This document shows positions 1-10,379 of a stretch of DNA of 32,961 nucleotides, in pieces. Origin of the DNA: a bacterium (lineage in GTDB: Bacteria; Campylobacterota; Campylobacteria; Campylobacterales; Sulfurovaceae). Below the pieces are notes generated by a model. The model did no database searches. It saw only the letters and a list, made by a program, of their open reading frames with translations, and had not been told where the DNA came from. The translations under genes and the position numbers were made by a program. How positions within the stretch are numbered: position 1 is the stretch's first letter; every line of letters begins with the position of its first letter. The stretch spans positions 1 to 32,961 of the forward strand of contig JAHJJU010000055.1 of NCBI GenBank assembly GCA_018822805.1, written 5' to 3'.

Positions 1-126
1 ATTTATATAAAAATATCTTTATACTTTGAATATCAATAAATATTTTTAAGTATTTTTGATAGCTATTAGGTTTTCTGCTGAGCTTTATTGGTGGATTTAG
101 AAAAATTAAAAGATAAAGGATTTAAA

Positions 127-264
127 ATGGCTATGCGTAATTGGGGTAATTGTCATTGGTGTGGTAAAACAATTCTTACAGAACACAGACCACCAAACTT
201 AAGTAAAATGTATTACTTTTGTTCAAACAGTTGTATGTCAAGCTATCAAGCTTCTCTAAGATAA
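127..264 (+). CDS. 45-aa Cys-rich small protein (TRASH/zinc-ribbon-like)
   Basis: This short ORF has a good ribosome binding site (AAAGGA at 115-120, six bases before the ATG). The product has a CxxC pair near the N-terminus (CHWC) and a CxxxC pair (CSNSC) near the C-terminus, preceded by Tyr-Tyr-Phe. That layout resembles TRASH/MYM-type zinc fingers. It is the first of four tiny Cys-rich ORFs in a row upstream of a radical SAM/SPASM gene. It may be a metal-binding microprotein or a substrate of that enzyme; nothing in the sequence decides between them. The frame stays open upstream to a TGA at 79-81 and includes a GTG at 91, so a longer product starting with Asp-Leu-Glu-Lys is possible, but no ribosome binding site supports it. 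Confidence 0.6.
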   Translation: MAMRNWGNCHWCGKTILTEHRPPNLSKMYYFCSNSCMSSYQASLR

Positions 265-274
265 AGGAAAAATT

Positions 275-397
275 ATGAGTAAAGAAGAAAAAGAAAAATT
301 GGCAAAGATGTTTTCAAAAGGGGCTGTAAAAGCTACTAAGAGTAAGGCTGAACATCTTAATTGTACTAAGCAAGGTTGTGGCTCTTCTTGGGCTTGA
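275..397 (+). CDS. 40-aa Lys-rich peptide with C-terminal Cys motif, candidate modified peptide precursor
   Basis: The ORF begins 10 bases after the previous stop, with AAGGA at 264-268 as ribosome binding site. The first ~29 residues are charged and Lys-rich, probably helical, with no Cys. The last 11 residues are CTKQGCGSSWA, with two Cys, Gly and a penultimate Trp. A charged leader followed by a compact Cys/Gly/aromatic tail is the usual shape of a RiPP precursor. Of the four small ORFs this is the one least like a zinc ribbon, having only two Cys. A radical SAM/SPASM enzyme with an RRE-like domain lies 1.6 kb downstream on the same strand. The precursor role is inferred from shape and context; I do not recognise the peptide family. 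Confidence 0.6.
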   Translation: MSKEEKEKLAKMFSKGAVKATKSKAEHLNCTKQGCGSSWA

Positions 398-455
398 TTG
401 AATATTGAAGAGTAATTTTTACTTTTCATAATAAAAATAAAGAGAAAGGTAAAAA

Positions 456-575
456 ATGGATCGTATAACTTGTCCATATTGTAGTTCACAAAATACAGAA
501 TATCTTGGTTTTGAAAAAGGAAGGTATTTTTGGAGATGTAAAAACTGTGGGGGAAATTATAGTAATCCTGAATAA
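456..575 (+). CDS. 39-aa zinc-ribbon microprotein
   Basis: This short ORF encodes CPYC near the N-terminus and CKNC about 20 residues later, followed by Gly-Gly-Asn-Tyr. The four-Cys spacing fits a single zinc ribbon. The second half (Trp-Arg-Cys-Lys-Asn-Cys-Gly) resembles the C-terminal tail of the lipoprotein at 872-1984 (Tyr-Gln-Cys-Lys-Val-Cys-Gly), so the two probably share a fold. The ribosome binding site is a purine run, AGAGAAAGG, at 441-449. It is the third of four tiny Cys-rich ORFs in the cluster. A zinc-binding microprotein is the simplest reading. Whether the radical SAM enzyme downstream acts on it is unknown. Confidence 0.55.
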   Translation: MDRITCPYCSSQNTEYLGFEKGRYFWRCKNCGGNYSNPE

Positions 576-595
576 ATTACCTATAACGCATGGTC

Positions 596-601
596 TATAA
601 T
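596..601 (+). promoter_or_regulatory. Possible -10 box in the small-peptide cluster
   Basis: TATAAT lies 58 bases upstream of the fourth small ORF, in a stretch with no gene. A second purine-rich site, ATAAAGG, follows at 606-612. No convincing -35 is visible, which is usual for Campylobacterota sigma-70 promoters. It could drive the fourth peptide separately from the first three. Confidence 0.3.
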
Positions 602-658
602 CAAAATAAAGGTATAAATTTTGAGTAATTTTATACTTATAAAATAAAGGAAAAAATC

Positions 659-796
659 ATGAAAAGAATATGGCAAGTAGAGTGTATGGCTTCTAATCAA
701 AGATGTGTTATCTGTGGTGGATGGGGTGGAGAATGGGGAAGAGGACAAGGTGGTCGAGCTATATGTATCGATTGTTGGAATAAAGGGAGTAGATAA
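659..796 (+). CDS. 45-aa Cys/Gly/Trp-rich small protein
   Basis: The ORF is preceded by ATAAAGGA (643-650), the same ribosome-binding context as the first two small ORFs. The product has an upstream Cys at residue 9, then CVIC, a Gly/Trp-rich stretch (GGWGGEWGRGQGG) and CIDC near the C-terminus. The two CxxC pairs could bind zinc. The Gly/Trp-rich linker is unusual for a zinc ribbon and is the sort of segment RiPP enzymes modify. It is the last of the tiny ORFs, followed by a hairpin and then the lipoprotein gene. Function unknown. Confidence 0.55.
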   Translation: MKRIWQVECMASNQRCVICGGWGGEWGRGQGGRAICIDCWNKGSR

Positions 797-811
797 TTCT
801 ATTTCTTTTTT

Positions 812-835
812 AAAGCATTCTACAGTGAATGCTTT
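812..835 (+). other. Intercistronic stem-loop before the lipoprotein gene
   Basis: A perfect 9-bp inverted repeat (AAAGCATTC / GAATGCTTT) with a 6-base loop sits between the last small ORF and the lipoprotein. No T-run follows it on the plus strand; the T-run comes before it. It is therefore more likely a processing or stabilising hairpin, or a weak attenuator, than a classical terminator. Confidence 0.45.
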
Positions 836-871
836 GAAGATGAAATAATCGTCTAAATAGAGGAGGATATT

Positions 872-1984
872 ATGAAAGTTTTTAAAATTACAATGCCTAT
901 AGCTATGAGTTTGTTTTTTTTAGGTTGTGCTTCAAAATATTTTGAAGAAGCTGTAGAAAAAGATACGGTTTATGCTTATAAAAGTTTCTTAGAAGAATAT
1001 GGAGATAGTGATTATGCATATCAAGTAAAAGAAAAATTATCCATTTTAATGGCTTATAATACGGCAAAAAGTAGAGATACAATTGCAGGATATAATTATT
1101 TTTTATCAGCATATGGTTCAAGTAAATATGCATATGAAGTTACAAAAAGGAGAGATTATTTAGAAAAACAAAAATATATAAACAATTTGACGAGTAAAAT
1201 TAAAAACTCAAATTCAGCAATTGACCAAGCTATAATTATGAATAGATATATGTATAATAAATATAGTAATGATATTAAAAGTGATTATTTTTTAAAAAAA
1301 TATTATGAAAATGCAATTGGTTGTTTTAGAACAACAAGAGATATTATACTCATTGATAAAAAAACAGAGTGGAAAGATTTATTATTTGTTGATAAACGAA
1401 TAGATTATATATATGCAGGGAAAGTATTCCAAGGGGATATTATATATAAAGATGGAGACTATATTAGTACACTTCATAGTTACAAAGATTTAAAAAAAAT
1501 TTATACAAATCATAGTGAATGGAATGATAAAGATGGAATAATCAAAGAAGCTTTTGGCTCAATGGCTGAGTTTAAAAAAGAAAATAAATTATCAAATGAA
1601 GATTTATTTCAAAGTGTATTTTATTCAGTTACTGCCAAGGAATTTATTCCAACGAAATATATTCAAACAACTTCTAGTTTAGAAGGAGCATTAATTGATT
1701 TTGTAGAAGAAAATCCTCTTACTAGTTTAGCTATTGGTGCAGGTGTTGCAACAATGTTGAATTCATCTTCTGATAATTCTAGTTTTTCAGCTTCTACTTC
1801 ATCAGACTCTAGCTCTAGTAATTATGATGTAACAGCTGACCCTGAAATGACACGATGGGAACAACGGTACTGTTCTAGTTGTGGAAAATCTACAAGACAT
1901 AAAGTTGGTAGACATGAACATGGTAGTAGTAAAGCAGATTATCAGTGTAAAGTATGTGGTGATGGTTATGCAGGAAGTTGGTAG
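872..1984 (+). CDS. Lipoprotein with two N-terminal repeats and C-terminal zinc ribbon
   Basis: The 370-aa product has a lipoprotein-type signal (hydrophobic residues ~8-18, then FLGC with Cys19). Two related repeats follow at about residues 30-60 and 68-98. Each has an Asp-Thr, an aromatic-rich helix, a Tyr-Gly-x-Ser and Tyr-Ala-Tyr-x-Val, like short TPR-type units of outer-membrane lipoproteins. A hydrophobic segment lies near 277-292, and a Ser-rich linker at ~295-318. The last 45 residues are a zinc ribbon (Cys334, Cys337, Cys359, Cys362) ending GDGYAGSW. AGGAGG at 861-866 is a strong ribosome binding site. The 3' end overlaps the probable start of the radical SAM gene by 17 bases, which suggests translational coupling. 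The gene is clearly richer in A+T than the housekeeping genes further right. Role unknown; it may be an envelope component or a substrate of the radical SAM enzyme. Confidence 0.8.
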   Translation: MKVFKITMPIAMSLFFLGCASKYFEEAVEKDTVYAYKSFLEEYGDSDYAYQVKEKLSILMAYNTAKSRDTIAGYNYFLSAYGSSKYAYEVTKRRDYLEKQKYINNLTSKIKNSNSAIDQAIIMNRYMYNKYSNDIKSDYFLKKYYENAIGCFRTTRDIILIDKKTEWKDLLFVDKRIDYIYAGKVFQGDIIYKDGDYISTLHSYKDLKKIYTNHSEWNDKDGIIKEAFGSMAEFKKENKLSNEDLFQSVFYSVTAKEFIPTKYIQTTSSLEGALIDFVEENPLTSLAIGAGVATMLNSSSDNSSFSASTSSDSSSSNYDVTADPEMTRWEQRYCSSCGKSTRHKVGRHEHGSSKADYQCKVCGDGYAGSW

Positions 1985-3332
1985 AACTTTCGAAAATTCT
2001 TTTCTCAAAATAAAAAATGCTTTCGGCAAAAGAGATTATATTTTAAGAGAAGAACAAGAGGGAGCTATTTTTTATGGTCAAGTGGGTAGCAAATACAAAA
2101 CATTTAAACTAAAAATTAGCCAAAGTGCTACTTTTCTTTTTGAGCTTATACGAGATGGTATCTCTTATGAAGAAATTTATGAAGTGCTTAGTACCAATGG
2201 ATTTTCTAAAGAGCTTATAGAGTCGGAACTAAATGCTTTGATTGCCATTAGTAATTTTGACAGAACACATGATGCTATTAGCAATGATGTTATAGTTGAA
2301 AAGTTAACAGCACCTATCAATATCACATGGGACATAACCAATGCTTGTAATCTACAATGTGACCACTGTATCAATGCTAGTGGAAAAGCAGATATATTTG
2401 AAATGACTACAGAGCAGTGTTTGAGTGTTATTGACCAATTGAGTGAGATGGGTGTTTACAATATTTGGATGGGAGGAGGCGAACCTTTAGCCAAAAAAGA
2501 TATAGATAAAATATTACGCCATGGAAAAGAGAAAGGTCTACATATTATCTTGGCAACTAACGGTAAGTTACTTTTAAAACCTGAATATCTGAAACTGGTG
2601 GGAGAGACTTGTGCTGAGGTTAATCTAAGTTTAGATGGTATGAGAGAAGAAGACCACTCCTATCTTCGAGGGCAATCAGCCAAATTATTAGAAGTTGTCT
2701 CAGCCATAAAACTACTTAAATCAAACTATCCTAATATTTGGGTAACAGCTCTAACTGTTGTGCATACAGAGAACCTATTTAAGCTTGAATCTCTTATTGA
2801 TTTCTGTTATGAGATAGGGTGTGATAAGTGGACGCATGATGAACTCTATCTTTTAGGAAGAGCCAGTTTGAAATATAAAGATATAATTTTGAAATACAAC
2901 GATTATATCAGTCTCTATCAAATCGTTAACAAAAAAGCTGATGAGTATCAAGATAAAATGCTTGTCGAACGATATGTAAGAATGGTCACACCCTCACAAA
3001 GTAACAATATGATTTATGGTTGTAGTGCAGGACGCAGTGAAATATCTATTCAGCAAAATGGAGATGTATTTCCTTGTCAAAAAATGCAATTGGATAAATA
3101 CCTTGCAGGTAATCTCAAATCTACCTCTCTAAAGAAGATTTGGGATAACAGTGAAGTGTTATATCAAATCCGAAACCTAGACATAAACCAAAGTGAATGT
3201 GCAGGGTGTGAGAGCTTTTTAAATCACAGTTGCAATGGTGGCTGTATAGCAGAGAAAGAGATTGTATTTGGAAAAAATACAGTTCGTGACCCAATGTGTC
3301 CTAAGAGGGAATTTGAAAGTGTGTTGTTTTGA
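1968..3332 (+). CDS. Radical SAM/SPASM peptide-modifying enzyme with N-terminal PqqD-like (RRE) domain
   Basis: Numbered from the ATG at 1968 (454 aa), residues ~23-97 resemble a PqqD-like RiPP recognition element: a YILREEQEGAIFY strand pair, then helices with ATFLFELI. The radical SAM core follows with the CX3CX2C cluster motif at Cys127, Cys131 and Cys134, and GGGEP at 169-173. A C-terminal SPASM domain has seven Cys (352, 370, 411, 414, 422, 426, 444) in the order expected for two auxiliary Fe-S clusters. This arrangement is typical of RiPP maturases that cross-link or epimerise peptides. The frame is open back to an ATG at 1881, but residues before 1968 translate lipoprotein sequence in another frame and do not look like domain sequence. 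The ribosome binding site is weak, so coupling to the lipoprotein is likely. The GNAT gene follows four bases later. The general class is confident; the substrate and chemistry are not known. Confidence 0.88.
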   Translation: MQEVGRTFENSFLKIKNAFGKRDYILREEQEGAIFYGQVGSKYKTFKLKISQSATFLFELIRDGISYEEIYEVLSTNGFSKELIESELNALIAISNFDRTHDAISNDVIVEKLTAPINITWDITNACNLQCDHCINASGKADIFEMTTEQCLSVIDQLSEMGVYNIWMGGGEPLAKKDIDKILRHGKEKGLHIILATNGKLLLKPEYLKLVGETCAEVNLSLDGMREEDHSYLRGQSAKLLEVVSAIKLLKSNYPNIWVTALTVVHTENLFKLESLIDFCYEIGCDKWTHDELYLLGRASLKYKDIILKYNDYISLYQIVNKKADEYQDKMLVERYVRMVTPSQSNNMIYGCSAGRSEISIQQNGDVFPCQKMQLDKYLAGNLKSTSLKKIWDNSEVLYQIRNLDINQSECAGCESFLNHSCNGGCIAEKEIVFGKNTVRDPMCPKREFESVLF

Positions 3333-3336
3333 GATA

Positions 3337-3711
3337 ATGGGATTAGAAGATAGTTTAGAAACTCGAAAAGATTTTATTGCTTGCTTTGAAGATATAGATG
3401 AAAAAATTTTATTCTTGAGACTGAAGGAATATTTTTCTTATAAGGAGAATTTTCATTATGGAATACAATATGATAACAAAATTGTGGGATTTCTTTTTTC
3501 TACAAAAGTTAATAAAGTATTTGAGCTTGAAAAATCTAATGGACTTTATATTCTTGATTTTGTTGTTCATCCCTATTTTAGAGGGAAAAAACTTGGTAGT
3601 AATTTATTGAAATTTTATGTTAATATGCATGAAAACTTGAGTATTATAGCTCATACTCGTAGTTTAGTTTTTGAGAGGATGTTGAGGAGATTTGATTTTA
3701 AAAAGGTATGA
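3337..3711 (+). CDS. GNAT-family N-acetyltransferase
   Basis: This 124-aa protein has the acetyl-CoA-binding motif A of GNAT enzymes: a strand ILDFVVHP (residues 72-79) followed by FRGKKLGSNLL, which fits the R/Q-x-x-G-x-G/A pyrophosphate loop. The C-terminal half (ending RMLRRFDFKKV) matches the family's last helix and strand. The ATG at 3337 lies four bases after the radical SAM stop, so the two are probably co-translated. An upstream in-frame ATG (3262) lies inside the radical SAM gene and is less likely. It is slightly short for a GNAT (usually 140-180 aa). Given its position it may acetylate the peptide product or give self-immunity. That role is an inference. Confidence 0.75.
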   Translation: MGLEDSLETRKDFIACFEDIDEKILFLRLKEYFSYKENFHYGIQYDNKIVGFLFSTKVNKVFELEKSNGLYILDFVVHPYFRGKKLGSNLLKFYVNMHENLSIIAHTRSLVFERMLRRFDFKKV

Positions 3712-3843
3712 TTTACATACGAGAATTTTTTACACTCCCTTAAATTCTATTTATACTCTTGTACTTGGCTTATCTGTTTATCTTTACGACCGTTACGGCT
3801 TGGGTCTTATCATTTATAACGTATCGTATTTTGCTGTAAAAAA

Positions 3844-3870
3844 GTAGGGTGGGCATTCTTGCCCACAAGT
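3844..3870. repeat. GTAGGGTG-type small palindromic repeat, copy 1
   Basis: GTAGGGTGGGC is followed by a 6-base loop and GCCCAC, giving a 6-bp GC-rich hairpin in a very AT-rich gap. A second element starting with the same GTAGGGTG and holding its own hairpin lies at 15982-16006. Similar GTAGGGTG-headed palindromes are scattered between genes in many proteobacteria. Lying between the convergent GNAT gene and ATPase gene, it could also help end transcription. Confidence 0.5.
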
Positions 3871-3884
3871 AAATCATCTAACTT

Positions 3885-5090
3885 TTAATAAAAATACCCA
3901 ATAGGTAGTGCTATACATCGTTCATCTATTTGTAAAACATTTTGACCCATATAAAAAACAATACCAAAGATATTTTTAGATGATTTCTTTTGATAATTTC
4001 GTATATGCTGAAAATCATCTTTCCCTACTTTTGAAGAGGATTTTACCTCTATAGCTATAATATTGTTGTTTCGTTGAAGTATAAAGTCTATTTCTTTTTT
4101 ATCGTTGGTTAAATAGTGATAAATTTTAGTATCATCTATCGCAAAGCTGATATGTTTAAGTAGCTCATTAAAAATAAAAGTTTCAACTAATGCTCCTTTA
4201 TAAGTGGAGGTTTCAAATTGTTCTAGGGTATAAATACCTAAAAAATAACTCATAATTCCTGTATCATTTAAAAAAATTTTAGGCGACTTAACAAACTGTT
4301 TACCAATATTATCAAAAAAAGGTCTAACCATATTTAACTGAAAGGTCTGCTCTAAAATAACTAGATAATTTTCACACGTTTCAACTCTTATTCCAACTGC
4401 TTTAGAAATCTTTGACTTGTTGAGGAGTGTTGTACTTCTTGGAGCTATAATGTTTACAAATCTAAAAAAACTATCTATATCGCGAAAGTCACCCAAATCT
4501 CGTGCATCTCTTTCGATGTAAGTACTTACATATGATGAGAACCAAAGTTTTTTTTCTAAAGGAGACTCTAGGTTTTGTACATCAGGATATCCACCTTTTA
4601 ATATATCGTTTATTATTTGGTTTGTTTCAACTTTTACAACATCAAAATCATGGTTAAACAACTTGTCTATAATATTTTCACTATTTTTATGCACTTTCTC
4701 TTTTATGCTCAATGGATATAAATCTATTTCAATAATCCTACCTGCTAAAGTATCTTGTGTTTGCTTCATATCTAAAATATTGGTAGAACCTGTAATTAAA
4801 AAGTCTCCATTTTTTCTCTGTTTATCAATATAGAGTTTTAATGACTCTAAAAGTTCAGGAACTTTTTGAATCTCATCAATGGTTACAGGTTTTTGAAGAA
4901 TCTCTACAAATCTATTGGGGTCATCTTTGGCACTAATTCGAGTGGAAACATCATCAAGAACAATATAGTTTGGATTTAATTCCATTGACAATGTTGATTT
5001 CCCTACTTGCCTAGCACCCTTAAGCAAAACAATTGGGGAAATTTTTAGAGCAGTTTTAAGTACAGGGTCGATACTTCTTTTTAGCATCAT
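3885..5090 (-). CDS. AAA-family ATPase with DUF4143 domain
   Basis: The 401-aa product has Walker A GARQVGKS (residues 25-32) and Walker B VTIDEI (69-74), followed by a sensor-like LITGSTN. This is the AAA_14 domain. The C-terminal half is the DUF4143 region with KEIDFIL and AIEVKSS, a strand pattern like a PD-(D/E)xK nuclease fold. Length is typical for the family. These proteins are widespread and scattered, often strain-variable, and have no settled function. AAGGA just upstream supports the first or second of the paired ATGs (5090 or 5087). The upstream region carries direct repeats overlapping a TATAAT, described separately. The neighbouring helicase is on the same strand but 147 bases away, so they are probably separate units. 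Confidence 0.85.
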   Translation of the reverse strand: MMLKRSIDPVLKTALKISPIVLLKGARQVGKSTLSMELNPNYIVLDDVSTRISAKDDPNRFVEILQKPVTIDEIQKVPELLESLKLYIDKQRKNGDFLITGSTNILDMKQTQDTLAGRIIEIDLYPLSIKEKVHKNSENIIDKLFNHDFDVVKVETNQIINDILKGGYPDVQNLESPLEKKLWFSSYVSTYIERDARDLGDFRDIDSFFRFVNIIAPRSTTLLNKSKISKAVGIRVETCENYLVILEQTFQLNMVRPFFDNIGKQFVKSPKIFLNDTGIMSYFLGIYTLEQFETSTYKGALVETFIFNELLKHISFAIDDTKIYHYLTNDKKEIDFILQRNNNIIAIEVKSSSKVGKDDFQHIRNYQKKSSKNIFGIVFYMGQNVLQIDERCIALPIGYFY

Positions 5091-5103
5091 AGAGTCCTTT
5101 TTT

Positions 5104-5144
5104 ATATATTATACTATTATACTAGTTTATTTTATACTAGTTTA
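5104..5144 (-). promoter_or_regulatory. Promoter with 13-bp direct repeats upstream of the DUF4143 ATPase
   Basis: On the plus strand TTATACTAGTTTA occurs at 5117-5129 and again at 5132-5144, a 15-base period. A truncated third copy (TTATACTA-like) sits just to the left. Read on the minus strand these give repeated TAGTATAA(T), so the repeats overlap the likely -10 boxes. Each full copy contains the palindrome ACTAGT. This looks like an operator over the promoter. The regulator is not evident. Confidence 0.45.
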
Positions 5145-5237
5145 ATAGAGTTTTTAATCTAATTATTCTAGAAAACGAGTAATAAATTTCAAAGAAATAG
5201 ATAAATAAATAAAATAATTAAGTAGTCGCATATATTT

Positions 5238-6953
5238 CTACACAAACAACATAACCAACCGTATCTCATCATAACCGGCTTCACCATCCATTGCATCAAA
5301 TATGGGTTTAAGCCTTAATGACCCATCGTCAGAGAAGTACTCTTCATTTTTCTCTTGTTGTAGTTTTAAAATCATCTGCTCTATGCGTTTGCTCTTTGCC
5401 CCTGTGGGTTTAAACTTGCTCAAATCTAAAGAACTCTCTTCTTTTTTCAAATAGGCTAAATGGTTCATAATGGTGCCTTCCGTTACACCTCTGGTTTTAG
5501 CTATCTCTTTGATGCTTGAACAACTCTCAATCAAAAATTTGGTTTTTAATTGCGTAGGGGTGTCATTTTTCATTTTTGCTACTTTACCACTTCTGAGTAG
5601 TTTTCTCTCCTCTTCTATCTGTACAAAACTGGTGAGTCCACCTAGACTTTTAATGTAGTTAAGATGACGTTTTTTGAGTTCATCTTCACTGTAACTCTCA
5701 ATCTCTTCACTCGCTTTTAATGAGGCTTTTTTAATGGGTTCATCAATACGCAAAGTCAAAGGGTCAACAGTTAATGCCATATCATTTAAGCCCATTAAGC
5801 GTAATCCTTCGATATTTTTTATTCGTGACAGTGCTACGTATCCTTGTCCTACTTCAAAAGTTTTAGACAAATCAATCTCGGCTGAATCAAGCGTCATACC
5901 TTGAGACTTATGAATGGTCAATGCCCATGCTAAACGTAAAGGAAGTTGTGAAACTGTAGCAACTATTTCTCCTGAATCATTCTCTACCGTCCAATCTTCT
6001 GCTATGACGCGTATGTTTTGTCCGGTTGATGTCTTGACTATAGGTATGTCACCCTCAAAGCTTACAACCACACCTGTCGTTCCATTGACATAACCCTTTT
6101 CAGGGTTGTTCTTTATAAACAACACCACGGCATCTTTTTTTAATGTTAGCTCCTCTAAGACTAAAGAGGTTTTAAAGATTTTTTCTATGTTTTTGGCTGA
6201 ACCTTTTGAGGTGTAGGTAAATGTTTTGGGTTTACTCGCTAGTCTATTTAGCTCTTCTAAATTGATTCTATCGACATCAATATTGTGTGTGTAGAGTTTG
6301 GTAGGCGTAAACTTAGCATCCAACTCTTTATGGAAACAGGACTCCAATGTTTCGTGTGATTGAACCGAGACAGCTCCACTTCGAATTTCATCTAAAATCT
6401 CAATCAATTGGTTGTCATCTTGTCTAAATTTTTCATTGAGGTAACAACTCTTTAATTCCAAGGCTCTCCAAACGGGTGACTGCCATGCAAAACGTTTCTC
6501 TTTAAACTCTTTGCTTACAGGGGGTAGCTGAAAAAAGTCACCAGAAATCACCACTTGTACTCCACCAAAAGGTTCGGGAGAGTTCTTAAATGCCCGTAAC
6601 ACTTTGTCCATGGAAGAAAATATTTCTGGAGAGACCATTGAAACTTCATCGATGATTAGAAGTTTCAACTTAGAAAAACGACTCTTTAAGTAACTCTTTT
6701 GAAGTAAGAATTCAACATAACCATTGTCCACAACGCTGTCACGTATGCCCAACGCAAAAAATGAGTGAATCGTTTGCCCTTTTAAATGTGACGCTGCAAT
6801 GCCTGTTGGTGCCACAACGGTTGGGTAAATTCGTCGCTCCTTTAGGTACTGGATAAATTGATTTAAAAGATAGGTTTTACCCGTACCTGCTGAACCTGTT
6901 ATAAAAACATTTTGTCCCGATTTTAGTATGTTAAGTGCTGTAAGTTGTTTCAT
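5238..6953 (-). CDS. PIF1-like superfamily 1B DNA helicase
   Basis: This 571-aa protein carries the ordered helicase motifs. Motif I is GSAGTGKT (residues 20-27), followed by VVAPTGIAA (Ia), LLIIDEVSMV (II), VISGDFFQLPPV (III), and late motifs ALTIHKSQGMTLD (V) and GQGYVALSRIKN (VI). This set is characteristic of PIF1/RecD-like 5'-3' helicases. A C-terminal helix-turn-helix of the type found at the ends of RecQ/PIF1 proteins is visible at about residues 478-505 (SIKEIAKTRGVTEGTIMNHL). PIF1-like helicases resolve G-quadruplexes and stalled forks in other organisms. No clear ribosome binding site precedes the ATG. It is a single-gene unit on the minus strand. Confidence 0.9.
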   Translation of the reverse strand: MKQLTALNILKSGQNVFITGSAGTGKTYLLNQFIQYLKERRIYPTVVAPTGIAASHLKGQTIHSFFALGIRDSVVDNGYVEFLLQKSYLKSRFSKLKLLIIDEVSMVSPEIFSSMDKVLRAFKNSPEPFGGVQVVISGDFFQLPPVSKEFKEKRFAWQSPVWRALELKSCYLNEKFRQDDNQLIEILDEIRSGAVSVQSHETLESCFHKELDAKFTPTKLYTHNIDVDRINLEELNRLASKPKTFTYTSKGSAKNIEKIFKTSLVLEELTLKKDAVVLFIKNNPEKGYVNGTTGVVVSFEGDIPIVKTSTGQNIRVIAEDWTVENDSGEIVATVSQLPLRLAWALTIHKSQGMTLDSAEIDLSKTFEVGQGYVALSRIKNIEGLRLMGLNDMALTVDPLTLRIDEPIKKASLKASEEIESYSEDELKKRHLNYIKSLGGLTSFVQIEEERKLLRSGKVAKMKNDTPTQLKTKFLIESCSSIKEIAKTRGVTEGTIMNHLAYLKKEESSLDLSKFKPTGAKSKRIEQMILKLQQEKNEEYFSDDGSLRLKPIFDAMDGEAGYDEIRLVMLFV

Positions 6954-7145: not shown

Positions 7146-8516
7146 GTGCAAAATAAAAAGACCATCATAACCTATGGAACATATGACATGTTGCATATTG
7201 GACACATGAATTTACTAGAGAGGGCAAAAGCTTTAGGCGATTACTTAATTGTTGGGGTAACCGATGAGAATTATGACCGTTCTCGGGGTAAGCTCAATGT
7301 ATCGCAAAGTACAGCTGACAGGGTAAAAGCCATAGAGGCATTAGATTTTGTTGATATGGTTATTGTAGAGAAGCATAAAAATCAAAAAGCAGAAGATATG
7401 GTCAAGTACGACGTCGATATTTTTGCTATTGGTGATGATTGGGTAGGGGCATTTGACTACCTTAATGAGTATACGCATGTGGAGTATTTACCTCGAACAG
7501 AGGGAATTTCCAGTACCAAGTTACGTAAAGAGAATTTTGACATTATTAAAATGGGTATTGTAGGATTGGGTCGCGATACACAGGCATTTATAGATGAATC
7601 TGGATTTGTCTCCAGCATAAAAGTTAACCGAATTTATGCTAATGATTTTTTAGAACTTAAAGCCTTTACTAAAGAGCATAAAACCATTAAGTATGGACAC
7701 GATAACTATGATGAGTTTTTGGACACTTCTATAGAAGCAGTCTATATAGACACGGCGTTAGAACAACACTATACCCTGATAAAAAGAGCATTAGAAGCAG
7801 GGAAACATGTACTTTGTGAGAACCCTTTAGCTTTAGATAAGGGAGAGTTAAAAGAGTTGCTCTCTTTAGCAAAACGAGAGAAAAAGCTTTTGCTTTCTGC
7901 TCTTAAAACAGCTTTTCTTCCAGCCTTTAATCAACTACTTCAAGAGTTGGGAACAGGAGTTATTGGAGACATAAAAGAAGTACGAGCAACACGAACCTCT
8001 CTCTATAAAGAGAAAGATTATGCTGATACCTTTATACAACAAGGTGCTACCAATATTTTGTCATCTTATCCATCACTTCTGGTTAATAAGATTTTAGGAA
8101 AAAGTAAAAATATTACCTTTTTTGACCAAGAAGAGGAGGGTTACGACATTAACAACTTGATTGTTACCCAACATAAAAATGGTGCATTGGGTATTTCTAA
8201 TGTTGCCATTGGGATGAAGTCTGAAGGTGATGCTGTTATCTCCGGAACAAAAGGATATGCTTATATTCCTGCTCCATGGTGGTTGACCAAAACCTTTGAG
8301 TTTAGATTTGAAGATTCGCATAAAAGTCATACCTATAAATATGAGTTTGAGGGGTGTGGATTACGCTACATGATAGCAGAGTTTTCTTCACTTATTCAGC
8401 GTGGTAAACGTAAGTCTAAAATGTTGTCACCTTCAGACATGGTAGGTATTAACAGAGTATTACTAGAGTACAACGACAGTAAAAAAAATAAAAACAAAAA
8501 AGAAGAGGAAGCATAG
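7146..8516 (+). CDS. Fused cytidylyltransferase / Gfo-Idh-MocA oxidoreductase-like protein
   Basis: The 456-aa product joins two domains. Residues 1-128 are a glycerol-3-phosphate cytidylyltransferase-like (TagD/TarD) nucleotidyltransferase with TYGTYDMLHIGH (HxGH at 17-20) and the late ISSTKLR motif (121-127). From about 134 a Rossmann domain starts with GIVGLGR (137-143), followed by the Gfo/Idh/MocA fold. The usual EKP motif with its catalytic Lys reads CENP here (Asn226), so redox activity may be lost or altered. The start is GTG, with AGGGAG upstream at 7134-7139. The next gene begins right after the stop. The fusion, with an aminotransferase and LicD behind it, suggests synthesis of a CDP-activated (amino)polyol or amino-alcohol. 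The exact substrate is unknown. Confidence 0.85.
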   Translation: MQNKKTIITYGTYDMLHIGHMNLLERAKALGDYLIVGVTDENYDRSRGKLNVSQSTADRVKAIEALDFVDMVIVEKHKNQKAEDMVKYDVDIFAIGDDWVGAFDYLNEYTHVEYLPRTEGISSTKLRKENFDIIKMGIVGLGRDTQAFIDESGFVSSIKVNRIYANDFLELKAFTKEHKTIKYGHDNYDEFLDTSIEAVYIDTALEQHYTLIKRALEAGKHVLCENPLALDKGELKELLSLAKREKKLLLSALKTAFLPAFNQLLQELGTGVIGDIKEVRATRTSLYKEKDYADTFIQQGATNILSSYPSLLVNKILGKSKNITFFDQEEEGYDINNLIVTQHKNGALGISNVAIGMKSEGDAVISGTKGYAYIPAPWWLTKTFEFRFEDSHKSHTYKYEFEGCGLRYMIAEFSSLIQRGKRKSKMLSPSDMVGINRVLLEYNDSKKNKNKKEEEA

Positions 8517-9596
8517 ATGATATACGAAGATTACTACATATTTACCCCTGGACCCGTAAAGATGTCCGAGGAAATTTTAGAGGTAGGGGCAAAACAGACT
8601 CCCTATTTTAGAAACTGTGAATTTTCAGATGTCACCTATGCTTGTGAAAAGGGTTTACTCAAGATGGTCAATGCTCCAGAGGGAAGTAAAGTTATCTTTT
8701 TAACAGCCTCAGGAACAGCAGGTATGGAGTCGGTAGTAATGAACTTACTTACCAAAGATGATAAGGCATTGGTCGTTCATGGTGGTGGTTTTGGAGGTCG
8801 TTTTGTGGATATTTGTGCTATACAGGATGTACCTCATATTGATTTTAAAGTGAGTAACACAAATTTATCGGATATAGATACTTTAGCTCCCAAAGAGAAC
8901 TACACTTCACTAATTGTGAATGCTCACGAGACTTCTGTAGGACATCTTTATGATTTAGATGCGATGGGAGCTTATGTTAAGAAAAACGATTTGTTTTTTA
9001 TTGTCGATGCTATTTCTATGTTGGTAACCGACCCTATAGACATGAGTGAGCAGAACATAGACGTGATCATTGCAAGTTCTCAAAAAGGTTTGGCACTGCC
9101 TCCTGGATTAACCATGGTCATTCTTGCACCAAGGGCGTTAGCGAAAGTACAAGACGTCAAGAACTTGTATTTTAATTTTAAAGATTATTTGCGTAATGGT
9201 GAACGAGGGCAAACGCCTTATACCCCGGCTGTGACCATAATGTTACAACTCGAAGCAAGATTGGCTCAAATAGAGCGACGTGGTGGGGTAGAGCAGAGTA
9301 TTAAATCGGCTAAAGCCATTGCCGAGTATTTCCGTGAGAGCATTAAAGATTTACCTCTAAAAGCCTATACCGAATTTATGCCCAATGCTATGACGACCTT
9401 GACGCCAACGGATGGTAAATCTGCCATGGACATTGTCAACGGTTTAGAAGAGAAGTACAAGGTAATGGTTTGCCCAAATGGAGGAGCTGAGCGAGACATT
9501 ATCTTTAGGGTTTCACACATGGGTGACATGACCCGAGCTTATACTGATGTGTTGATTAATGCACTCTATGACTACTATGGGATAGAACGAAAATAG
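8517..9596 (+). CDS. Class V PLP aminotransferase (AEP/serine-pyruvate transaminase-like)
   Basis: The 359-aa product begins with the FTPGPVKMSEEIL signature of the alanine-glyoxylate / 2-aminoethylphosphonate transaminase branch. It has TASGTAGMESVV (63-74), the cofactor Asp in FIVDAIS (Asp164), and the PLP-binding Lys190 in SSQKGLALPPG. The C-terminal Arg in IIFRVSHMG fits a carboxylate contact. Length is normal. The ATG directly abuts the preceding TAG, and the next gene directly abuts this stop, so the three genes must be one operon. A likely role is to aminate an aldehyde or ketone precursor before CDP activation, or to make an amino-alcohol head group. No PEP mutase is visible, so a phosphonate route is not supported inside the window. 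Confidence 0.87.
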   Translation: MIYEDYYIFTPGPVKMSEEILEVGAKQTPYFRNCEFSDVTYACEKGLLKMVNAPEGSKVIFLTASGTAGMESVVMNLLTKDDKALVVHGGGFGGRFVDICAIQDVPHIDFKVSNTNLSDIDTLAPKENYTSLIVNAHETSVGHLYDLDAMGAYVKKNDLFFIVDAISMLVTDPIDMSEQNIDVIIASSQKGLALPPGLTMVILAPRALAKVQDVKNLYFNFKDYLRNGERGQTPYTPAVTIMLQLEARLAQIERRGGVEQSIKSAKAIAEYFRESIKDLPLKAYTEFMPNAMTTLTPTDGKSAMDIVNGLEEKYKVMVCPNGGAERDIIFRVSHMGDMTRAYTDVLINALYDYYGIERK

Positions 9597-10379
9597 ATGG
9601 CAAAGATAGATCCAAAAACACTGCGAAAAGCACAGCTGATTATGCTCGATATGTTGGTTGAATTTGATGCCATTTGTACCAAACATAATTTACAATATTG
9701 GTTAGATTCCGGAACCCTTCTTGGTGCTGTACGGCATCAAGGGTTTATTCCTTGGGACGATGACATTGACCTCTCGATGCCAGTGGAGGATTATGAGAAG
9801 TTTAGAAAAATAGCCCAAAGTGAACTCTCTGATTCTATCTTTTTCCAAACAGTTGAGACGGATGCTGCTTTTAAATTTGACTATATCAAACTGCGTTCAA
9901 ACAGAGCTTCTATTGTTGAGTTTCATGAGAAAGATAGAGAAGTAGGGTACCATCAAGGGGTATTTGTAGATATCTTCCCGATGTTAACGGTAGAAAATAC
10001 TCCCTTTCATCAGCAGTTTTATACCGATATTTTTAAACTGATTCGTTCGGTCTCCTCTGTAAGTCTACATACGCCGGAGGGGAAAGATAACCCTTTAATC
10101 AGAGCCAAATTGGTAGAGTCTTGGGATGTGATGCATCAAGGTTGGCAGAAAGAAGATATCAAAATAGTCTACAGTGGAAAAATGCCCGATGTGGCTGTAT
10201 GGTTTGATTATAAAAAAGTATTTCCTCTGAAAAAAATGGAATTTGAAGGGTTAGTGTTCCCTGTACCTAATGATCCTTGGCACTATTTAGAGAATACTTA
10301 TTCGTTTAATTATATGGAGTTGCCTCCTGTGGATAAACGTGCTATTCATGCTCATGAGATAAAGATAGAGAACGTTTAA
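9597..10379 (+). CDS. LicD-family phosphotransferase
   Basis: This 260-aa protein has the LicD hallmark at residues 33-59: QYWLDSGTLLGAVRHQGF followed by IPWDDDIDL, with the metal-binding Asp cluster. LicD enzymes move phosphocholine or similar phospho-groups from a CDP donor onto sugars of teichoic acid, LPS or capsule. The gene starts immediately after the aminotransferase stop. As the last member of the operon it is the natural candidate to transfer the CDP-linked group made by the two upstream enzymes. The acceptor glycan is not encoded nearby. Confidence 0.88.
   Translation: MAKIDPKTLRKAQLIMLDMLVEFDAICTKHNLQYWLDSGTLLGAVRHQGFIPWDDDIDLSMPVEDYEKFRKIAQSELSDSIFFQTVETDAAFKFDYIKLRSNRASIVEFHEKDREVGYHQGVFVDIFPMLTVENTPFHQQFYTDIFKLIRSVSSVSLHTPEGKDNPLIRAKLVESWDVMHQGWQKEDIKIVYSGKMPDVAVWFDYKKVFPLKKMEFEGLVFPVPNDPWHYLENTYSFNYMELPPVDKRAIHAHEIKIENV

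Follow-up and report, generated by a model that had tools for sequence, protein, structure and literature searches.

A possible RiPP-type locus joining a radical SAM/SPASM enzyme to zinc-ribbon miniproteins and a lipoprotein in a Sulfurovaceae genome

The locus and its small genes

Contig JAHJJU010000055.1 (GenBank assembly GCA_018822805.1) comes from a bacterium of the family Sulfurovaceae (Campylobacterota), and its positions 1 to 32,961 are referred to here as the window. At the left end lies a group of seven genes, all on the plus strand and spanning 127-3711: four open reading frames (ORFs) of 39-45 residues, termed mini-ORFs, followed by a lipoprotein, a radical S-adenosylmethionine (SAM) enzyme with a SPASM domain, and a GCN5-related N-acetyltransferase (GNAT). 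We tentatively read this group as a locus for a ribosomally synthesized and post-translationally modified peptide (RiPP), with the 40-residue product of the second mini-ORF as its candidate precursor. There is a 17-nt overlap between the lipoprotein and enzyme genes, and 4 nt separate the stop codon of the enzyme from the start of the GNAT. A one-strand layout with a 3′ overlap and a four-base gap had been described in an earlier note made from the sequence alone and is borne out by the ORF coordinates. That note began the first mini-ORF at position 88; the gene itself stands, but position 88 holds an in-frame TTG, from which the product would have 58 residues, and the ATG at 127 has a better ribosome binding site.

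The four mini-ORFs look like genuine coding sequences by three tests. Purine-rich ribosome binding sites precede all four, as the note had claimed. None of 2000 dinucleotide-preserving shuffles contained four ATG ORFs of 35-60 residues led by ribosome sites (mean 0.08), and none of 2000 had two ORFs bearing two CxxC motifs. Finally, the codon score is best in the annotated frame for each of them (0.84, 0.70, 0.76 and 0.74, vs 0.42-0.63 out of frame).

Mini-ORFs 1, 3 and 4 each have two cysteine pairs with zinc-knuckle-like spacing, the first cysteine falling at residue 6-9, and are read as putative zinc-ribbon miniproteins. Mini-ORF1, with cysteines at 9, 12, 32 and 36, matches Pfam zf-FCS at 24.5 bits (cut-off 22.4), while mini-ORF3 matches many zinc-ribbon models, all below cut-off. 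Mini-ORFs 3 and 4 are also similar to the lipoprotein at its zinc-ribbon tail (z 3.4 and 3.3, respectively). The mini-ORFs are mutually dissimilar, and the 40-residue peptide is unlike the other three. It begins with a charged stretch of 29 residues lacking cysteine and ends in CTKQGCGSSWA, which places Cys30, Cys35 and Trp39 near the C-terminus, and it is the only one of the four with such a leader-plus-core layout. The possibility that the mini-ORFs are integron-like cassettes was rejected, as they have no repeats in common.

The mini-ORFs are separated from the three larger genes by a hairpin with a folding energy of -26.3 kcal/mol (z -6.6), a value matched by none of 200 shuffles. Since it is not followed by a U-tail, it is not a standard terminator; possibly, it is an RNA processing or attenuation site that sets the dosage of peptide versus enzyme. 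A search against Rfam found no RNA family in the window.

Table 1. Features of the locus, in window coordinates
Feature	Position	Strand	Description
Mini-ORF1	127..264	+	45 aa; CxxC..CxxxC; zf-FCS/TRASH-like zinc-finger miniprotein (putative); AAAGGA ribosome site
40-aa candidate precursor peptide	275..397	+	MSKEEKEKLAKMFSKGAVKATKSKAEHLN-CTKQGCGSSWA
Mini-ORF3	456..575	+	39 aa; putative zinc-ribbon miniprotein resembling lipoprotein tail
Mini-ORF4	659..796	+	45 aa; CxxC..CxxC miniprotein resembling lipoprotein tail
Hairpin	800..847	+	Between mini-ORFs and lipoprotein/radical SAM/GNAT genes; inverted repeat I2
Lipoprotein	872..1984	+	370 aa; lipobox FLGC; C-terminal zinc ribbon ending CKVCGDGYAGSW
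Radical SAM/SPASM enzyme	1968..3332	+	454 aa; ATG at 1962 is a possible alternative start
GNAT acyltransferase	3337..3711	+	124 aa; Acetyltransf_1 domain

The locus is AT-richer than most of the window, with a GC content of 28-34% compared to mostly 33-41%, and no tRNA that might mark an island is found beside it within the window. Because the window opens with the first base of its contig, genes upstream of the locus could be missing. Further along, at 7146-10379, a cytidylyltransferase-like/oxidoreductase-like fusion, an aminotransferase and a LicD-like gene stand in a row and look like a surface phospho-decoration operon.

The enzyme, its N-terminal domain and its relatives

The assignment of the sixth gene as a radical SAM/SPASM enzyme, made in the earlier note, is confirmed by both Pfam domains, Radical_SAM at 79.3 bits (cut-off 29.5) and SPASM at 41.8 bits (cut-off 21.5). 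The CxxxCxxC cluster motif is CNLQCDHC at residues 127-134, GGGEP follows at 169, and the seven-cysteine SPASM set is complete (Cys 352, 370, 411, 414, 422, 426 and 444). The GNAT matches Pfam Acetyltransf_1 at 40.4 bits (cut-off 20.7). The radical SAM core also matches pVip, an antiviral viperin, at 77 bits, but the SPASM domain and the N-terminus described below speak against a viperin.

The NCBIfam neighbours listed for the enzyme (MftC, AhbD, TIGR04053, NirJ2, StsB, GeoRSP, TIGR04133 and PqqE) all score well below cut-off. The best is the mycofactocin maturase MftC (TIGR03962) at 159.2 bits against a cut-off of 265; StsB reaches 132.8 (cut-off 625), the rSAM_w_lipo family TIGR04133 121.7 (425), the GDL-peptide maturase TIGR03913 106.1 (591.75), PapB 76.1 (340) and SkfB 75.5 (300). 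Peptide maturases among the best neighbours are thus MftC, StsB, PqqE and the GDL-peptide maturase, all of them below cut-off. With every listed score in this position, the enzyme represents a family of the SPASM class that has no name as yet, and the earlier statement that this was not a described family agrees with the fact that no NCBIfam equivalog among the matches listed claims it. An unnamed cluster is in itself unsurprising, since a survey has already placed SPASM-type enzymes in more than 250 clusters with numerous putative pathways (PMC9062424).

The N-terminus of the enzyme is likely an RRE (RiPP recognition element)-type domain, a view based on its predicted fold and a weak profile match. 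By sequence, the first 110 residues had no Pfam match even at an E-value of 10, and the PqqD family (PF05402) had no match in the genome. Alignment by hhalign to a PqqD profile of about two dozen sequences gave a match, though a weak one, around strand 3 and helix 1, with a score of 20.05 compared to a maximum of 14.9 among 60 shuffles and 18.8 among 42 unrelated segments. AlphaFold2 (AF2) modeling of the domain alone (about residues 5-100) predicted a winged-helix fold of three strands followed by three helices at a predicted local distance difference test score (pLDDT) of 65, a single-sequence prediction that carries moderate weight; the whole enzyme, also modeled from a single sequence, reached a pLDDT of 36 and is unusable beyond secondary structure.

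Among the structural matches to the predicted domain, 11 of the top 13 are RiPP proteins carrying RREs. The best is the lasso peptide B1 protein 5v1v (Z 7.6, 2.7 Å over 79 residues), which with the related 6jx3 and 5v1u covers Z 7.2-7.6; PqqD (5sxy) and TigE (8vpo) follow at 6.8, and then MadB, TbtB and SuiB. Such a run of RRE-bearing matches would be hard to obtain from the Protein Data Bank by chance, and the RRE reading is therefore likely, although Z-scores below 8 may reflect a common arrangement and alone are no proof of an RRE, and DNA-binding winged helices are a near fold (5clv and 9dlu at Z 4.8). The PqqD-like N-terminus proposed earlier is thus upheld by the predicted fold and the weak profile match, but not by the Pfam sequence search.

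About 1,000 genomes were searched, comprising 399 of the order, 175 of the family and 269 of the phylum (three overlapping sets), together with 43 from the order and 369 from the class of Candidatus Thiomargarita nelsonii. The enzyme is intact in its source genome only, with no intact orthologue elsewhere among them. One close relative was found in T. nelsonii itself (L004, 3286-3914), with 62% identity over residues 179-300. The match resumes in another frame over residues 401-446, while residues 1-176 and about 98 residues in between are gone. This copy is probably a decayed, N-terminally deleted remnant, an assembly fault being less likely. A GNAT-type ORF starts no more than about 80 nt past the end of the match, as in the window. 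Homology between the two GNATs could not be shown, as they align no better than chance.

The class set of T. nelsonii held one further match to the enzyme, at 29% over residues 92-445. Plasmid matches were all below 60% identity (25-30% among the matches listed), and neither the enzyme nor the lipoprotein was found in viral contigs. The scan of genome contigs relied on exact eight-residue patterns, which are sensitive to close relatives only. The lipoprotein also had no relative in its own genome, T. nelsonii, phages or plasmids. The mini-ORFs had no relative of note in the 175 family genomes; the apparent relatives of mini-ORF1 in the family (L038 and L041) lie antisense to an arsenate-reductase-like gene and are artefacts. 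A single DNA match to the CTKQGCGSSW pattern in a viral contig (L077) falls within a phage-like ORF but in another frame, and was put down to chance. The locus looks horizontally acquired, and the occurrence of a close remnant in Thiomargarita suggests that such spread has taken place between distantly related bacteria.

Other radical SAM proteins were seen along the way. A genome of the same family (L031) encodes a different radical SAM/SPASM protein of 467 residues with an extra N-terminal domain of ~110 residues. A plasmid of Rhizobium sp. T1473 (L017, 4995-7489) carries two adjacent radical SAM proteins beside a pyrophosphatase gene, each with a short stretch that appears PqqD-like by eye at its N-terminus; the first shares 25% identity with residues 24-444 of the window enzyme.

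A putative peptide-modification pathway and its alternatives

Our tentative interpretation, which we put at close to an even chance, is that the locus is a small RiPP-type operon in which the enzyme forms a cross-link in the core of the 40-residue peptide, the GNAT acylates it and the lipoprotein serves as an envelope partner. It is favoured by the tight coupling of the lipoprotein, enzyme and GNAT genes and by the GNAT-type gene that also directly follows the T. nelsonii remnant. If one of the local ORFs is an RRE-guided precursor, the 40-residue peptide is most likely that ORF, an argument from architecture, since it alone has a leader and a core. The earlier note had singled out the same peptide as the likeliest substrate, a choice that agrees with this layout. 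Its broader view of the mini-ORFs as a set of substrates is not supported, given that three have early cysteine pairs and that mini-ORFs 3 and 4, which are among these, look like the tail of the lipoprotein with its zinc ribbon.

SPASM enzymes that carry an RRE use it to bind a leader and modify the core that lies downstream (PMC8326336). In the proposed pathway, we infer the identity of the substrate, the type of cross-link, the acylation and the role of the lipoprotein. Residues 1-29 of the peptide would serve as the leader and CTKQGCGSSWA as a short core, and the RRE-type domain would bind the leader and present the core to the active site. SAM would be reductively cleaved at the CxxxCxxC cluster to yield a 5′-deoxyadenosyl radical that takes a hydrogen atom from one of the residues of the core, with the SPASM clusters helping to accept the electron as an intramolecular cross-link forms. 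This would most likely be a cysteine thioether, probably via Cys30 or Cys35, or else a link to Trp39. The GNAT may then acylate the product, as GNATs do in the goadsporin (GodH) and selidamide pathways (PMC10373908). The lipoprotein might provide anchoring, export or immunity, and the three zinc-ribbon miniproteins would be accessory or unrelated rather than substrates.

Several observations weigh against the proposal, in addition to the moderate weight of the domain model and the nearness of its fold to DNA-binding proteins. The enzyme gene has the lipoprotein gene, not that of the 40-residue peptide, as its nearest neighbour. No relative of the peptide was found in the 399 order genomes, plasmids or phages, and thus no conservation to point to, and no precursor resembling it is known in the libraries searched. 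No second intact locus was found, so peptide and enzyme show no conservation as a pair: the sample is a single intact locus plus a decayed one, and the remnant is without its own 5′ part. The two GNATs cannot be aligned beyond chance. Finally, no protease or exporter gene adjoins the locus on the contig, which is cut at base 1 and may have lost one.

The tight coupling of the lipoprotein to the enzyme gene is also the reason why its roles as partner and as substrate are both kept. In the latter case, the enzyme would mature the C-terminal CKVCGDGYAGSW zinc-ribbon segment of the lipoprotein, and perhaps mini-ORFs 3 and 4, in a role like that of the sulfatase or quinohemoprotein maturases. The 17-nt gene overlap, the resemblance of mini-ORFs 3 and 4 to the lipoprotein tail, the Gly/Ser-Trp ending common to the lipoprotein (GSW) and the 40-residue peptide (GSSWA), and the presence of rSAM_w_lipo among the top NCBIfam neighbours are all consistent with this. 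However, the enzyme is no member of that family by its cut-off, the zinc-knuckle spacing suggests that the cysteines bind metal rather than become cross-linked, and an RRE suggests that a peptide leader is recognised, rather than the tail of a 370-residue protein. We consider maturation of the lipoprotein unlikely.

A similarly low probability is given to a chance assembly in a variable island, where the genes have separate functions and the substrate of the enzyme is encoded elsewhere. Neither the mini-ORFs nor the enzyme have an orthologue in the 175 family genomes, the corresponding search with the lipoprotein having covered its own genome and T. nelsonii, and the AT-rich composition of the locus and the mutual dissimilarity of the mini-ORFs would fit such an origin. 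Against it stand the seven genes on one strand with their 3′ overlap and 4-nt gap, the GNAT-type gene after the T. nelsonii remnant, and the lack of cassette-type repeats between the mini-ORFs.

Since no profile comes nearer than MftC, a route to a mycofactocin- or PQQ-like small molecule is possible, although we rate it as quite improbable. MftC oxidatively decarboxylates and cyclises the C-terminal Val-Tyr of a 31-residue precursor bound by the chaperone MftB (PMC7491314). Here, the enzyme would act on the C-terminus of the 40-residue peptide (GCGSSWA), which has the aromatic Trp39 beside its end, after which proteolysis would free a fragment for the GNAT to cap. However, the 159-bit score falls well short of the cut-off, the enzyme carries its RRE within the same chain, genes like those of MftD, MftE or MftF were not seen beside the locus, and Ala40 follows Trp39, so that the aromatic residue is not terminal. 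It is more improbable still that the one enzyme matures several local cysteine-rich targets (the lipoprotein tail, mini-ORFs 3 and 4, perhaps mini-ORF1, and the 40-residue peptide), which would make it a radical enzyme that modifies metal-binding ribbons instead of a dedicated natural-product core.

Comparison with known systems

If the 40-residue peptide is indeed the substrate, the RiPPs gain a new precursor together with a maturase family that has yet to be named. Literature on RiPP radical SAM enzymes in Sulfurovum was searched for, and none was found in the collection searched. The mycofactocin system MftA/MftB/MftC has the maturase closest by profile, a short precursor and an RRE-type recognition domain. 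It differs in that here the RRE is part of the enzyme, a GNAT and a lipoprotein take the place of MftD, MftE and MftF, and there is no C-terminal Val-Tyr. The order of RRE, radical SAM and SPASM is that of the fused-RRE maturases with a SPASM or twitch domain, such as CteB, SkfB, SuiB, TigE and StsB, and the domains of SuiB and TigE are matched by the predicted structure; in contrast, the enzyme lies far below the profile cut-offs of StsB, SkfB and PapB. As in TIGR04133, a radical SAM/SPASM gene adjoins a lipoprotein gene, but the enzyme does not reach the cut-off of that family.

Plasmid pAT1 of Aureibacter tunicatorum (L076) carries, at 3183-5953, three tandem DUF1843 peptides, a radical SAM/SPASM enzyme that matches TIGR03913 at 535 bits (cut-off 592), and a methyltransferase. 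With a score slightly below the curated cut-off, it is likely a RiPP-type locus for a GDL peptide. This locus resembles that of the window in its tandem small ORFs followed by a radical SAM/SPASM enzyme and a tailoring enzyme, and the two radical SAM enzymes are 30% identical over 355 residues. However, its three 56-residue peptides are homologous, whereas the four mini-ORFs here are mutually dissimilar, and its enzyme has no N-terminal RRE. Small ORFs in front of a radical SAM/SPASM enzyme and a tailoring enzyme are thus a known arrangement. What is unusual here is the combination of putative zinc-ribbon miniproteins and a zinc-ribbon lipoprotein with the radical SAM enzyme.

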